Positions 16,212 through 22,761 of a stretch of 64,000 nucleotides of DNA are shown in pieces. The notes below the pieces were generated by a model. It was not told the origin of the DNA. It worked only from the letters and a program-made list of their open reading frames with translations, and did no database searches. The stretch is from Karstenula rhodostoma CBS 690.94 (lineage: Eukaryota > Ascomycota > Dothideomycetes > Pleosporales > Didymosphaeriaceae): positions 456,842 through 520,841 of the forward strand of contig MU001512.1 of NCBI GenBank assembly GCA_010093485.1, given 5' to 3'. The position numbers and the translations under genes were made by a program. Each line of letters opens with the position of its first letter. The first letter of the stretch is position 1.

Positions 16212-19054
16212 CTACTCATTGTCTAATCGTCGTTCTGCCTGCTCAGGCTCTGGTACTTCTGACTCCCATGCTGCCAGCGCCTCGCGAGATGATATGGTAT
16301 AGGGGTGTTGAGGACCCAGGACCGCTTCCCTTCGCGTACAGCAATCTTGCATCAGGGATATTGCTTTGCTGGTAAAACCTTGGCCTTTCCATGTGAATGC
16401 GAGATTATGCATGCTGAATAGCGTGTCAGGATGATCTTCTCCAAGCTTCCTCTTCGTAGTCTCCAGTAATTGCACCTCAATCGCTTCCGCATCTGTCCAC
16501 CGACCTTGATTCGCATACGCTGTTGCTAGGTTCGCTAGACTAGCTAGCGTATCAGGGTGGTCTACTCCAAGCTTTCTCTTGCGAGTCTCTACTACTTGTA
16601 TATCTAGTCTTTCAGCGTCTGTCCATCGACCTTGGTGTTGATAGGTGACTGAGAGATTGTTCATACTAGTCAGCGTGTCAGGATGATCCGCCCCAAACCT
16701 CTTCTTGCGAGTTTCCAATACTTGCATATCTAGCGCTTCAGCCTCTCTCCATCGGTTTAGCTCGACGTAAGTCGACGCTAGATTGCTCATGCTAGATAGG
16801 GTGTCAGGGTGGTCCGCTCCAAACTTCGTCTTGCGGATGTCCATTACTTGCACCTCTACTGCTTCGGCCTCTCTTGCCTGGCCTTGTTCTCTGTACATCG
16901 ACGCCAGGTTCGCCATGCTTCTTAGCGTCTCAGGATGGTCCCATCCAAACTTCTTCTTTCGACTCTCCGTGACTGACACCTCTAGCGCTTCAGCCTCTCT
17001 CCACCGGCCTTGATCCATATACGTTAATGCCAGGTTGCCCATGCTGGCCAGCGTGTCTGGATGGTCCACGCCCAGTCTCTCGGTACTTGTCTTTAGGACA
17101 TACACCTCTAGCGCTTCGGCTTCATCCCACTGTCCTTGCATTCTGTATGTGGACGCTAGGTTCGCCATGGATGTCAGCATGTCAGGATGGTCAACTCCAA
17201 GCTTCCTCTGATGGATCTCTAGCAATTGCACTTCTAGTACTTGAGCATCCGCCCAGCGGCCTTGGTCACTATACGTCGAAGCCAAATTGCTCATGCTGGC
17301 CAGCGTCGAGGGATGGTCCACTCCGAGCACCCGTTTCCGCATTTGTAGCGCTTGTTGATGCATTGCCTCTGCTTCGTCATATCGACCTTGCCGGTTTACA
17401 TCCATCCCAAGACTGTTGAGGCTGGCAAGCGTATCTTCGTGCTCCGCACCCAAAATCATCTCCCAGGTCTGGAAAGCAGCTAAGTCCATTTCGTACGCCT
17501 TGTTGTACTGTCCCATCTCTCTTGCGTACCATGCCGCCCGGGAAAGTACAGAGGCCCACACCACCTGTGTGTCTGCCTCCTTTGGCGGACTGTTCAACAC
17601 AGCTTCAGCATGCGGGAACAACGCCTGGCATGTCGGCCAGTTCTCGTGATGTGCCTCAGGGTAGCTTTCGTCCATAAGCATCGCGTATGTCTTCTTCCAT
17701 TGCTCCAGCTCGTTATTCAGCTCCAGCCACTTCTTAGTCGAGAACTGCACCAGTCGATGCATTTCGAAGTCCCGCTCACTCGCTTCAACCTTGACTAACG
17801 AGAAATTGATTAGCGTTTGGATATCATCTTCGAAGTCGGCATTATGATCATCGTTCACTTTATACCGCTTCTGAAGAAGCGACTCAGGTATTCCCTGTCG
17901 ATCGAATAGACTCATGAGTGACAGCAGCTGAGCCGCTGTTGGCGTCCGCTCTTGGATGTGCTCGAACGATATCTGCCAGGTGACGATGATAGAATTGATC
18001 GCGCGGGCGTCTCTGCGAAGGTCCCCTACGTTCTTCTCCAGCAGCCGCACTCGGTGAACATCGCTTCTGTGGACTTCGTCTATGTACTTCGAGAGGGTCA
18101 TGCGCGGCGCTCTCTGCTTGATAAAAGCGGCTGCCTGTGTAAGGGCGAGCGGCATGGAATCGAGAGCGTCTATCAGTTGGACAGCTTCATTCTCACTAAC
18201 TATAGAACCAAGCTTCCTCCGGAGAAGGGCTACAGCGTCGTCCTTGTTCATCGGCTGGACTTCGAAAATGTTATCATGGTTGCCTGTGAGCCTGTACGCT
18301 GCATCCCAACTTCGCGAGGTGACCAGAATGGACCCATTGGACGATTGAGGCAGGAAGTCGAAGAGCGGCTCTGCCGGCGTGTTGTCCGGGCCGTCTGTTG
18401 TGCGGTCCTGCGGTAAGTCTTGGAAGAAGATGCTCGCATCGTCGGCGTTGTCAACCACGATTAGCCACCGCCCATTCGACTCGTCGCACAGCCACCTCCG
18501 CACAAGTCGCAGTACGTCCGCTTTGGGGTCTTCCCAGCCGTCCATCTTCGTGGCCTCGGCAATCCTGCGGTAGCCCTCCTCGAACCGCGCCCGGGTGCCT
18601 GCGTGCACCCAGAAGACCCATGTAGATGGCGACTCGTCCCGCACCTGGTAGGCATACTCGATCGCGATCTGAGATTTTCTGTGCTATGGTCAGCATTCGT
18701 TCTGCACTGGAAGCTGCCATCTCTCACCCAACGCCTCCAAGGCCGACGAGCGCAGCACAGCCTGCGGGACGGGCGCAGGTCCGGCGGATGTCGTCAAGTC
18801 TATCGCGGGGAACGAAGTCTTCGTCGCGCCGGAAGGGCACTGTGTGCCACGGCGCGGGATTTGGCGGGCGGTCGTGGACGACTGTCACCGGGCCTTCACG
18901 CGCTAGTCAGCGAGCCGTTCGTGTGCATGTCTTCGGCGCTACAAAACAGAGAAGTAGAAGGCTTGCCATTGAAGATATCGCGCGCCGCATTGCCTGTCCC
19001 CAATTGCACCACGCTGGCCTTGATGGACCCGTTGTGATAGCTCGCCTCCGTCAT
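16212..19054 (-). CDS. NLR-type receptor: N-terminal amyloid-like motif, NB-ARC, TPR repeats
   Basis: Exons 18967-19054, 18728-18902 and 16212-18678 join in phase to 909 residues. The first intron uses a GC donor (18903-18966); the second is 49 bp (18679-18727). Residues 9-30 (motif G-S-I-x-A-x-V-x-Q-x-GTGNAARD) are shared with the C-terminus of the neighbouring hydrolase gene. NB-ARC follows: P-loop GLGGVGKS near 83-90, created by splicing; Walker B WLIVVDNADD; a GLPLA-like MPLALTQAA; and an MHD-like MHRLVQ. From about 495 to 890 come nine 42-residue TPR units of the DHPDTL...NLA...QGRW type plus a partial one. By analogy with known fungal STAND proteins, the repeats sense a ligand, NB-ARC oligomerises, and the N-terminal motif templates amyloid folding of the partner effector. 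That role is inference from architecture and adjacency. Confidence 0.93.
16330..17470 (-). repeat. Tandem 126-bp TPR-coding repeats within the NLR gene
   Basis: Nine consecutive 126-bp units, each coding a 42-residue TPR with near-constant framework (G-x-DHPDTL-x-SM-x-NLA-x-TY). Variation concentrates at a few positions per unit. Such homogeneity suggests recent unit exchange. Confidence 0.85.
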
Positions 19055-19470
19055 TGTATGCGATGGCCCCTCACTGAGCGAGGACCTGCGTGTGAGTATG
19101 AATGTCCGAAATCTGTAGCTTTGCAAGGTATTTCGTGTCCAGCTGACATGCACGGGATATACACGCGCCGCCGCATGCCGATGGTATCTATAAATAACTG
19201 ATACAGCCGTGGACTTCAGCTTTAATCATGCATCCATGCAGCCGTGGGGGCCAAGCCACCTTCTCTTTATTGGTCCTTTTCATCATTCCAGTAACTGAGC
19301 GCTGACTACTAGGCTAGGCACCACAGGATAGGCCACAAACTCCACACCAACGGCTATCATATGAAACTCTTCGTGCATTTAGTCATATTGTTCCCTACTG
19401 CAGGGAAGTTGTTGCTCGGTTTCGACATCAAACCATTGCTATCGTCGCACACCTATTCGTCCATCGCGTA
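19055..19470. other. Spacer between effector and NLR genes
   Basis: A 416-bp gap between the hydrolase stop (19471) and the NLR start (19054), both on the minus strand. It must hold the hydrolase terminator and the NLR promoter. No element was recognised. Confidence 0.5.
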
Positions 19471-20660
19471 TTAACGTTTCTCTGCGTACAGATTCCTATC
19501 CCCATTCACCCAGTCACGCCCGGCACTCTGATGTGTAACATTGCCACGATAGTAGTCTCTTCCTGCATTGCCTGTGCCATGTTGGAATACTCCTGCTTCG
19601 ATCGGACCATGGTTATGAAATGTTAGCCGCTCTGGAAAGCTCGTGCGCTTCGCTTCGGAAGGGATCTCGCAGGCCGCCTCCTCTTTTCCTTCCTCGATCC
19701 AGTTATCGAGAACCCCTTTGAGACTGATGAAACCAGCATCGCGCAGGCTAGTGAACTTGCTCATGTCCATGTGGTTGGCGTCTATACCACAGTTCGGGTA
19801 TGGCAGTATCGTCGCGGATTCCTCTGGTACTACAAACCCTACAACATCTACAGCGACTGTCTCGTAGAAGCAAAAAACCTTGACGTGGTGCAACATCCCA
19901 TCGGTGGCTAGTTGGCGTTGGAAGATTTCTTCGACCGCTCTCAGAACTTCCGATTCCCGCTTCAGAAGCGATATGAGCTCTTTATTGGTTCTCCAGATCC
20001 GGTCTAGCAACCTCGCAAGGGTGTAACCCCACGTCGCAAGATAACTTCCAGAATGCGGAGTGCCCATGAATACAATACCAGCTGTGCACTTAGCGATACT
20101 ATGGAGGCGAGGGTCCGCCGGTTCGAGGGAGATCAGCAGTGCCTGTTCGGCGACAAGACCACCAAGGCTGTGTGCAACAAAGTAAAGAGGGCGTGTGTCT
20201 TTGTCCTTGCCCGATCGGCTATTGGAGACGGCGTACGCAAGAGCCTTTCCATGTCCCCGAAGTCCTTCCCCACCGGCGTTCTTCCAAAGGCCTATGACGT
20301 TGGCGTCATAACCGTAGGTAATGATTCGTGCGGTTGGGAATTTCGCGCGTAAGAGGTCTGGAGTAAACGTTCCGTTCGAATGCGTCCAAGTTGAGTCACG
20401 GTTTCCTGTCAAGCCATGAACTAGCCAGATACTACAAGGTTAGCCCGATGTTCATGTAATATAGGGAATTCCCTACTCTATCTCGGCATTGCTTGGATCC
20501 GAGACTGTTCGGATGCCAAAGCTGCTATCCGTTACTTCGCTTTAGGTATGTAAGCAATGTTTATTATCTATAGATATTGACATACATACAGAGAGTTATC
20601 GCTACGGTCTAAAGCTAAGGCAGATAATGATGAATCATCCAGAATGGGAGGAGACTGCAT
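19471..20660 (-). CDS. SesB-like alpha/beta-hydrolase effector with C-terminal amyloid-like motif
   Basis: Exons 20590-20660, 20477-20539 and 19471-20431, with 50- and 45-bp introns, give 364 residues; the short first exon is the least certain part. The body is a DUF676/lipase-like alpha/beta-hydrolase: DIWLVHGLTGNRDSTW near the start, nucleophile elbow VAHSLGG with Ser about 133, FMGTPHSGS, and catalytic His in IDANHMDM. Residues 320-364 form a Gly/Asn/Gln-rich tail containing G-P-I-x-A-x-V-x-Q-x-GTGNAGRD, which matches residues 9-30 of the adjacent NLR, then a second AGRD unit. In fungi such hydrolases (SesB) are effectors switched on by amyloid templating from a cognate NLR. Here the pairing rests on the shared motif, the same strand and the 416-bp spacing. 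Confidence 0.92.
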
Positions 20661-21244
20661 TGTTAATGCTGTCGAGCTGGTATTGTTATGGGCTACGAGT
20701 TGGCTTCTGGATAGTGCTTGACTATTCTTTGCCCTCTCCTTTAGATATCGAAATACGGAGTGAGGCATATTGATAACGTGTGTTTGGCGGGCAGAAACAG
20801 GATAGACATGAATATAAGCGCCCCGTTTCACTGCAGCTACGCCGATAACAGAGGCTACCTCTTATGCTGCTTATCTACGATAGACCTATTCTTAGTATTT
20901 AGTAGATCATGCAAGGTAAAGAACACGCCGTGAGTGATTATGTAGCTAGTTAATAAGGTAACGCGCCCTGATTGGCTACTTGGATAGAAAGCGCGCGCTT
21001 ACAACGACAGTGGCTGCATTATTCGTCAACAGGCAGACCCCGCGTGAGGCTGAGCGCGTACAGCTATCTAAACCATAGACAGGGTACCATTGCAACAGCA
21101 TGAAACAGGTCGTAACACACTGTACCTCTATCGGGTTTCCATCTTTAGACTTGCAGGCGCTAGATCATCTCACTAGCCAGGGCACATTAACCCTTGTCTG
21201 TTTTGAGTTTCCGGTCACTGTCCCTCGGCAGACGGTAAGGTGGG
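20661..21244. other. Intergenic gap
   Basis: Divergent spacer upstream of the hydrolase gene; AT-rich, with no gene recognised. Confidence 0.45.
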
Positions 21245-21385: not shown

Positions 21386-21750
21386 ATTTGCATAGAAAAT
21401 TGCAAAGAAAATTCGAGCATCTTACGTCGCCTGCAGACTGAACGCGCTTCGCTGCTCCATGGCCAAATTGCAGGCTAACGACTTGCGCCGGGCGCATCGC
21501 CGATGTTCGTATAACCGATGTAGCACTGACACGGAGAGCGAGGCACAGCTGCGCGCTAACCGATCTGGTAAATGCGCTGTACCATGCTGCTGTTGTCGTT
21601 ATCGTCATCGTCATCGGATTTATTGCTGCCGCTGCTCGTGATTTCGAATGGAGAGAACTTGCCTTGCCGCCGTCATTGAAAACTAGTAAAGAACAGTCTA
21701 GGGACATCAATCGAAGAGAAGGATCTCAGAAAGGAGAGAAGACCGGCACA

Positions 21751-22761
21751 ATGGGTATTAACACGAGCACTCTGTTCTGGGTGGCGCAAGGAACACCCGA
21801 GAAAATCTACGCTGTGCAGGACATACCCGGGAAAGGCAGAGGCCTTATCGCGATCAAGGACATTGCAAAGGGTACGCGGGTCATATCTGAGAAGCCCATC
21901 ATCACGATGAGTAACATCATCGCATCCATCCAACAGCTCGACTCTTGCATTCTCGATCAAGTCAGTTCTCTCAGCAAAGGTGACATGCGAGAATTTCTTT
22001 CCATGGCTAATGCGCATGGCGGAACCAACTCTATAGAAAGGTGGCACGGCATTTTACGAACGAATGCACTACCCATGGGCCCAGACCTTGACGCTGGAGG
22101 CATCTTCTTGCATGCATGTCGCATAAACCACGCTTGCGACAGCAACGCGGTGAACTATTGGAACGAAAACCTCGATCAGCTCACGATACACGCTATACGA
22201 GACATCCGCAAGGGAGAAGAAATTACAATATCGTATCTAGCCGCTCTCCGAAACCGCCAGGCGCGCCAAAAAGATCTTTTGCACAACTTTGGATTTACAT
22301 GCGCGTGTCAACTGTGCTGCTTGCCGTTGGGGGAAAGCAAGGCCACCGACGCCGCCCTGGATCGGATTCACGCGCTCGATGGAATCATTGAAAAGCGCGG
22401 TATCCAAGGCCTTGTTAAGCCTGCGCGGAAGATGCTTGGCTATGTCGACGAGCAGGTCCGAATCTGGAACAACACTGCCATAGCTGAGATCGGTTTGGTA
22501 CGCGCATACCCCGATGCCTTCCAGATTGCGATTGCGAATGGAGATCTAGCGAGGGCGCGCGTCTTCGCCGAGAGATGTTTGCGCCTGTATGAGATCAGCG
22601 TCGGAAACGACAGCCCCGACGTAGCAGAGTACAGAGGGCTCGTCGTCAACCCCGCGACTCATAAATATCACGGCATGTCGATGAAGTGGGCGACGACGGT
22701 GGACGAGATTCCGCAGAGCCTGGATACCCCAAGTTTCGAAGATTGGCTTTGGAGGAGATAA
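21751..22761 (+). CDS. SET-domain protein, putative lysine methyltransferase
   Basis: A single exon of 336 residues from the first in-frame ATG (21751); the longer open frame starts at a TTG and is not used. The SET domain is bipartite: a GKGRGLIAIKDIAKGTRVI opening near residue 26, CRINHACDSNAVNYWN in the middle, and GEEITISYL. A Cys-rich post-SET segment CACQLCCLP follows, then a helical C-terminal region. This layout matches the many fungal SET proteins of the SMYD-like type lacking a MYND finger. Substrate unknown; S-adenosylmethionine is the expected cofactor. It is divergent with the hydrolase effector gene, but no functional link is evident. Confidence 0.92.
   Translation: MGINTSTLFWVAQGTPEKIYAVQDIPGKGRGLIAIKDIAKGTRVISEKPIITMSNIIASIQQLDSCILDQVSSLSKGDMREFLSMANAHGGTNSIERWHGILRTNALPMGPDLDAGGIFLHACRINHACDSNAVNYWNENLDQLTIHAIRDIRKGEEITISYLAALRNRQARQKDLLHNFGFTCACQLCCLPLGESKATDAALDRIHALDGIIEKRGIQGLVKPARKMLGYVDEQVRIWNNTAIAEIGLVRAYPDAFQIAIANGDLARARVFAERCLRLYEISVGNDSPDVAEYRGLVVNPATHKYHGMSMKWATTVDEIPQSLDTPSFEDWLWRR

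Follow-up and report, generated by a model that had tools for sequence, protein, structure and literature searches.

The window analysed here, a stretch of 64,000 nucleotides of contig MU001512.1 from Karstenula rhodostoma CBS 690.94, carries an NLR gene next to a gene for an alpha/beta hydrolase. As initially annotated, the two genes lie on one strand with 416 bp between them. Their features are as follows.

19471..20768, minus strand: SesB-like alpha/beta hydrolase (DUF676) gene, exons 20768-20590, 20539-20477 and 20431-19471; 400 aa
19498..19623, minus strand: effector-side motif TFHNHGPIEAGVFQHGTGNAGRDYYRGNVTHQSAGRDWVNGD, residues 351-392 of the hydrolase
16212..19054, minus strand: NLR gene, exons 19054-18967, 18893-18728 and 18678-16212; 906 aa
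18967..19042, minus strand: NLR-side motif SYHNGSIKASVVQLGTGNAARDIFN, in exon 1, running on as GPVTV in exon 2
18894..18966, minus strand: intron 1 of the NLR gene, GC-AG
16654..17067, minus strand: tandem repeat of 126 bp that codes for the NLR's 42-aa TPR units, 3.3 copies found

The exon model of the NLR is free of internal stops and agrees letter for letter with the public protein P0002 from the same strain. In the public gene model, too, the exon at 18967-19054 is present and the GC-AG first intron is spliced identically, both of which had been proposed from the DNA letters. The order along the protein is the N-terminal motif, an NB-ARC-type P-loop NTPase, DUF7779 and about 10 TPRs, and a Pfam scan found no domain upstream of the NTPase. 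TPR_10 reached 399 bits in 10 stretches and DUF7779 45.1 bits, above its cut-off; the NB-ARC match, at 19.9 bits, fell under the cut-off of 23.5.

The hydrolase model also lacks internal stops and, at 400 aa, equals the public protein P0122 letter for letter. The start given for this gene in the initial annotation, 20660, has to be corrected: it is an internal Met, and the actual start is at 20768. A 364-aa version scanned against Pfam matched DUF676 at 29.2 bits (cut-off 20.3). Ser169, within HSLGG, and His301 are invariant in an alignment of 51 sequences, several homologues bear the name ‘protein SERAC1’ in the source, and lipases and esterases rank high among the PDB matches. We class the protein as a SesB-like effector of the SERAC1 type with a lipase fold, a placement made by likeness to DUF676 and SERAC1. 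In the AlphaFold model, residues 342–400 have pLDDT <50 and no ordered structure beside a well-predicted core, and the C-terminal tail is probably unstructured.

A motif shared by the two termini

The N-terminus of the NLR reads MTEASYHNGSIKASVVQLGTGNAARDIFNGPVTV and the C-terminal end of the hydrolase reads TFHNHGPIEAGVFQHGTGNAGRDYYRGNVT…. The shared terminal segment has the 13 identities over 22 residues originally reported, and aligning the two termini gave 17 identities in 30 columns. The BLOSUM62 score of this alignment was 79, compared with a maximum of 53 for shuffled NLR N-termini (0 of 20,000 shuffles as good); the remainder of the two proteins scored 38. When either terminus was used as the query in a six-frame search of the 44.3-Mb genome, only the query itself and its neighbour were returned at E <= 10, with E values of 0.02 and 0.003 for the partner. 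The hydrolase tail additionally includes a partial second AGRD unit. We named the motif GNAGRD; it reads roughly F-x-N-G-x-I-x-A-x-[VI]-[FV]-Q-Q-G-[TSN]-G-N-A-[GA]-R-D-I.

Absence of the motif from homologous loci had been put forward as evidence against a signalling pair. Instead, homologues of both proteins carry it: among the matches listed, it is present at the C-terminus of 39 of the 120 hydrolase homologues and at the N-terminus of 6 of the 120 NLR homologues. Conservation in the hydrolases is 0.75 over the motif and 0.79 over the enzyme domain, versus 0.33 and 0.31 in the variable stretches on either side of the motif. We then compared 54 short NLR N-termini (120 listed, 56 past the filter) with 84 of the 120 hydrolase tails, and the six motif NLRs scored 87–100 against shuffle maxima of 42–55. 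Altogether 14 of the 54 N-termini outscored their 30 shuffles; beyond the six with GNAGRD and two with a VIPG/GGT tag, discussed below, the alignments were low-complexity or partial by eye and were rejected.

Because only six of the 120 listed NLRs carry the motif, and three of these (P0003, P0004 and P0016, from lichen records) share 87–89% mutual identity, there are few independent lineages on the receptor side, namely Karstenula, Pleomassaria, Epicoccum and the P0003/P0004/P0016 group. Outside K. rhodostoma, gene pairing rests on equal contig sizes in two cases and not on coordinates. The NLR P0006 and the hydrolase P0126 of Pleomassaria siparia have longest contigs of the same size (1,889,306), as do the NLR P0005, which as called is without the motif exon, and the hydrolase P0123 (17,407). 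For P0004 (contig of 554 kb), the matches listed included no hydrolase on a contig of that size. Four NLR relatives (P0045, P0049, P0058 and P0086) have such a hydrolase fused in front, matching the hydrolase at 35–40% and the NLR at 48–54%. A protein search with the motif only gave 5 candidates plus 3 proteins already known, and there were no confirmed relatives among the motif-pattern matches on prokaryote contigs (121) or viral contigs (49).

Comparison with known motif classes

In the initial annotation the motif had no obvious match to those of HET-s, sigma and PP, a judgement borne out by the Pfam models and by the PP and sigma patterns. All pattern tests were made on 44 motif proteins. 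For sigma, the shortened patterns GxGxQFN and GGTQ[NY] (full units GxGxQFNxx / GGTQNINT) occurred in 0 of 44, and PF17106, a model used without a positive control, had no match in the genome. For HET-s / HRAM, neither PF11558 nor PF17108 matched the NLR or the hydrolase; PF17108 did detect its positive control, the NLR-family relative P0090 (28.1 bits, cut-off 24.3). The PUASM pattern FxGxGxQxxGxGxF and the first 17 positions of the GDQN motif, NxxxGxQYxxxGxGDQNxVSxxxxQxN, were likewise found in 0 of 44. Pfam annotation of the 120 listed hydrolase homologues contained no PP or sigma tail. HeLo, PigL_N/HeLo-like and SesA have 7 genome matches each and none on the contig of the pair, and the hydrolase is therefore the sole effector candidate seen beside the NLR.

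It is also conceivable, if unlikely, that the motif seeds amyloid but belongs, in divergent form, to the PP/RHIM/BASS3 clan and is not a class of its own. The NLR of K. rhodostoma has V-Q-L-G, a RHIM-like tetrad ([IV]-Q-[IVL]-G), and by eye the Frankia BASS3 peptide of PMC8086366 (Table 2) also has Q-x-G-x-G-N. However, the tetrad is present in this one of the 44 motif proteins only, and G-phi-Q-phi-G, which would flank it and which is also the PP core, is found in 0 of 44, as is GxQxG. PF17046 had no match on the motif, while it recognised its positive control, the NLR-family relative P0035, at 25.9 bits (cut-off 23.2); hhalign against 12 PP-type N-termini gave a probability of 2.5%; and the Frankia peptide scored like its shuffles (p 0.12). 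The bacterial BASS comparison covered two published peptides only, the other being AEB69175, with a p of 0.0095 and an unconvincing alignment. Over 26 remote comparisons, uncorrected, the lowest shuffle p values were 0.0025 (P0196), 0.0030 (P0201) and 0.0080 (P0219), followed by that of AEB69175 and by 0.010 (P0035, off the motif). A position-specific motif score, too tight for remote comparison, was negative for every remote sequence. Profile comparison gave 9.4% with the VIPG/GGT hydrolase tails and 44% over 13 columns with SGGG...AGRD hydrolase tails, which at most hints at kinship of these sequences with the motif.

A candidate receptor–effector pair

Shared terminal tags of this kind are believed to act by amyloid seeding, a route by which a triggered receptor turns on an enzyme of cell death. 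The two genes probably form an immune-type unit in which receptor and effector are coupled through a distinct class of amyloid signalling motif. By ‘distinct’ we mean apart from PP, sigma, HET-s, PUASM and GDQN, the published families compared, to which PMC9815663 adds the unassigned motifs NLR17, NLR19, NLR20 and NLR34 and the PP-like NLR39. A distinct class, as first suggested from the DNA, fits the architecture, the presence of the motif in both receptors and hydrolases of other fungi, and its mismatch to the signatures of the five families compared.

The amyloid steps are modelled on the NWD2/HET-S and PNT1/HELLP/SBP systems. The NLR combines a TPR sensor array with an NB-ARC switch, lacks an effector domain, and would use its first ~30 residues as the signalling motif. 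Ligand would oligomerise the NLR, and the clustered N-termini would take a cross-beta fold that templates the hydrolase tails. The assembled hydrolase may then attack membrane lipids, thereby killing or walling off the cell.

The shared motif would have a different role if it were a conventional, non-amyloid docking peptide, the tails binding each other or a common partner, which we regard as rather improbable. The near-invariant R-D pair of the motif, invariant in 14 aligned sequences, is atypical of an amyloid core; it favours docking and counts against the amyloid reading. On the other hand, the motif sits at the start of an effector-less NLR and in a loose C-terminal tail of the effector, it has Gly/Asn/Gln content, and relatives in the same NLR family have PP or HET-S motifs recognised by Pfam at the same place (P0035 and P0090). 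Since the genes adjoin, local copying is conceivable, but a chance similarity or a recent, functionless duplication can hardly be reconciled with the shuffle results, the occurrence of both motif copies in other species and the conservation island in the hydrolase tails.

If the amyloid-coupled pair is taken as one of several, it is quite possible, though we offer this tentatively, that in filamentous fungi the SesB-like lipases carry short, interchangeable C-terminal tags that act as a code, each with its own NLR N-terminus. Tags would be swapped and the enzyme and receptor cores kept, yielding insulated, parallel death circuits. A second tag, FNGxIxGxxVIPGxQxxGGTxNFNF, links the NLRs P0052 and P0114 with 21 of the 120 listed hydrolase tails by pattern. 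Several further hydrolase tags are without a receptor found so far. The papers cited here describe a handful of fungal amyloid signalling motif families, namely HRAM, PP, sigma, PUASM and GDQN. A further class, joined to a lipase-type effector and with both partners known and adjacent, would make motif-encoded insulation of death pathways directly testable, along with the question of whether a fungal NLR can act via a lipid hydrolase. The motif would also serve as a seed profile when hydrolase tails and NLR N-termini are annotated.

Known systems resemble this pair in different respects. PUASM and GDQN are likewise fungal receptor–effector motif pairs found by computation (PMC9815663, PMC12261475), but their effectors are PNP_UDP and SesA, unlike the SesB-like protein here. 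In Chaetomium globosum and Podospora anserina, PP clusters show the arrangement seen here, an NLR with a short N-terminal motif beside an effector with the motif at its C-terminus: the NLR PNT1, which has NB-ARC and TPRs in P. anserina, is accompanied by HELLP, and C. globosum also has SBP, a putative lipase (PMC5485727, PMC7885112). They differ in their G-phi-Q-phi-G core and PF17046 match, and the contig studied here has no HeLo, HeLo-like or SesA match. In Nectria haematococca, the sigma system (sesA, sesB, het-eN) shares with our pair a SesB-type hydrolase whose C-terminal motif is common to a neighbouring STAND/NLR protein, and differs in having SesA and the sigma units with their PF17106 model (PMC3321046). 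NWD2/HET-S of P. anserina, the paradigm of receptor-to-effector amyloid templating, has another motif and another effector, HET-S being a HeLo pore-former; as with the one motif of our NLR and the partial second unit of the hydrolase tail, its receptor has one unit and its effector two (PMC3321046).

Two adjacent genes with a shared terminal motif

In Karstenula rhodostoma CBS 690.94 (Dothideomycetes, Pleosporales), the hydrolase gene and then the NLR gene follow each other on the minus strand, 416 bp apart:

20768-19471, minus strand, alpha/beta hydrolase (400 residues, three exons)
19054-16212, minus strand, NLR (906 residues, three exons)

By sequence comparison, the models are letter for letter identical to the public proteins P0122 (hydrolase) and P0002 (NLR). 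The first exon and GC-AG first intron that the initial annotation had given the NLR are both present in P0002. The methionine it chose for the hydrolase was not the start: the true model begins 36 residues upstream, at 20768, as in P0122, and this start is supported by a similar opening decapeptide in the homologues P0124 and P0126. A SET-domain protein gene (Pfam SET, 55.8 bits) lies on the plus strand at 21442-22761 of the window. The TPR region of the NLR contains a 126-bp tandem repeat (window 16654-17067); PMC4986451 reports that arrays of this type in P. anserina NLRs are polymorphic in repeat number.

The hydrolase C-terminus and the NLR N-terminus share a motif, here named GNAGRD, and their alignment has 17 identical residues over 30 columns (score 79); realignment reproduced the 13 identities in 22 residues counted originally. 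None of 20,000 shuffled NLR ends reached this score (maximum 53), and the remainders of the two proteins score 38 against each other. A six-frame search of the 44.3-Mb genome with either end, which takes exons singly so that an intron-split copy could escape, found two copies only at E <= 10.

Conservation, pairing and alternative tags

Of 524 hydrolase homologues found, 120 were listed; 39 of these match a looser motif pattern in their final 120 residues and 38 match a stricter one. P0144 carries a variant motif, P0156 ends within it, and a few others end ahead of it. On the receptor side, 120 of 542 NLR homologues were listed, and six of them carry the motif (P0002, P0003, P0004, P0006, P0007 and P0016). 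The other 114 show no pattern match and include proteins that begin with a SesA, HET, PNP_UDP or hydrolase domain, or with other short tips. Absence from homologous loci, which the initial annotation had named as grounds for rejecting the pair, is thus not what we found. In the 38 motif hydrolases, including the window's, pairwise identity averages 0.79 for the enzyme domain, 0.75 for the motif and 0.33 for the linker (703 pairs each), and 0.31 for the stretch after the motif (210 pairs). Fourteen chosen sequences give the consensus TFNNGxIKAxIFQQGTGNAGRDIxxGNVTxQSAGRDWxNxD, in which one residue each of Q, G, N, A, R and D does not vary. A partial second AGRD unit is present on the hydrolase side, and the NLRs P0006 and P0007 have additional RD units.

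Two further pairs may be linked, judging from equal longest-contig sizes rather than coordinates: P0006 with P0126, both from Pleomassaria siparia (tags 468281 and 468277; 1,889,306 for each), and P0005 with P0123 (source JGI; 17,407 for each). P0123 shares 84% identity with the window hydrolase, and the motif exon is missing from the called P0005 protein. The contigs of P0003, P0007 and P0016 span 2.5-6.5 kb; that of P0004 spans 554 kb, a size not found in the hydrolase listing (120 of 524). P0003, P0004 and P0016 are 87-89% identical to one another, yet their source records are lichens belonging to separate orders (Teloschistales, Baeomycetales). This suggests a common lichen-inhabiting fungus in the samples or horizontal transfer; descent would also be compatible with the data.

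Further hydrolase homologues finish in different short Gly/Asn-rich tags. The pattern for one, FNGxIxGxxVIPGxQxxGGT, fits 21 of the 120 listed tails (of 524), and the NLR N-termini P0052 and P0114 match this tag with scores of 75 and 72 versus shuffle maxima of 43 and 49. Since other hydrolases carry other tags and these two NLRs match one of them, the sequences suggest that tags may be swapped on a common hydrolase core. In the longer form FNGxIxGxxVIPGxQxxGGTxxF, this second tag is common to P0052, P0114 and tails of other fungi such as P0172, P0210 and P0219. Six tails (P0196, P0201, P0203, P0215, P0227 and P0231) carry SGGGxxFxGNxxAGRDF, like the second half of GNAGRD (hhalign 44% over 13 columns); no NLR N-terminus among the 120 listed (of 542) fits this pattern.

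The putative effector

DUF676 exceeds its Pfam cut-off in the window hydrolase. In a structure model from 51 homologues the core is well predicted and residues 342-400 have pLDDT < 50. Among fold matches the lipase BlEst2 ranks first (E 7.2e-9; TM 0.41 by query, 0.64 by target), and most of those that follow are lipases, esterases or further alpha/beta hydrolases. BlEst2 was again top in a sequence-profile search. Ser169 (in HSLGG) and His301 are invariant across the 51 homologues. The protein is a putative lipase-type enzyme, with these two as candidate catalytic residues. In PMC4986451, sesB-like domains are regarded as lipases, and the phospholipid esterase activity of SERAC1 is mentioned.

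Four NLR relatives (P0045, P0049, P0058 and P0086) have this hydrolase type ahead of the same NTPase-TPR body, and P0040 has the last part of the hydrolase. Such natural fusions hint independently that the enzyme may act together with the receptor. The genome has 7 listed matches each to HeLo, PF17111 and SesA. All of these lie on contigs other than the window's, and no further effector of those types was therefore found at this locus.

Comparison with known amyloid motifs

Neither motif copy matched the PF17046 (Ses_B), NACHT_sigma, HET-s or HET-S Pfam models. PF17046, according to PMC12261475, is a PP model under a wrong name; its two weak matches in the genome are below cut-off and on other contigs. 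PF17046 matches P0035 and PF17108 matches P0090, both relatives of the same NLR family, which serve as positive controls; PF17106, a model without such a control among relatives here, had no match in the genome. A profile comparison with 12 PP-type N-termini gave a probability of 2.5%. Published patterns from PMC3321046, PMC12261475, PMC7885112 and PMC9815663 (sections 19 and 24) matched none of the 44 motif proteins, except for the RHIM-like V-Q-L-G tetrad, found in the window NLR alone.

Our literature comparisons drew on PMC9815663, PMC8086366 (Table 2), PMC5485727, PMC3321046, PMC12261475, PMC12258605, PMC7885112, PMC12881547 and PMC4986451. Five motif strings had no match in the papers searched, and among the papers listed by topic searches none was recognised as describing the motif; an earlier sighting in figure logos or supplements is possible, for example as NLR34 of PMC9815663. 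Altogether, the analysis gives good support to a receptor and an effector coupled through a motif shared by their termini, as initially proposed, and, by analogy with known systems, the activated receptor would act through an amyloid step with death as the outcome.
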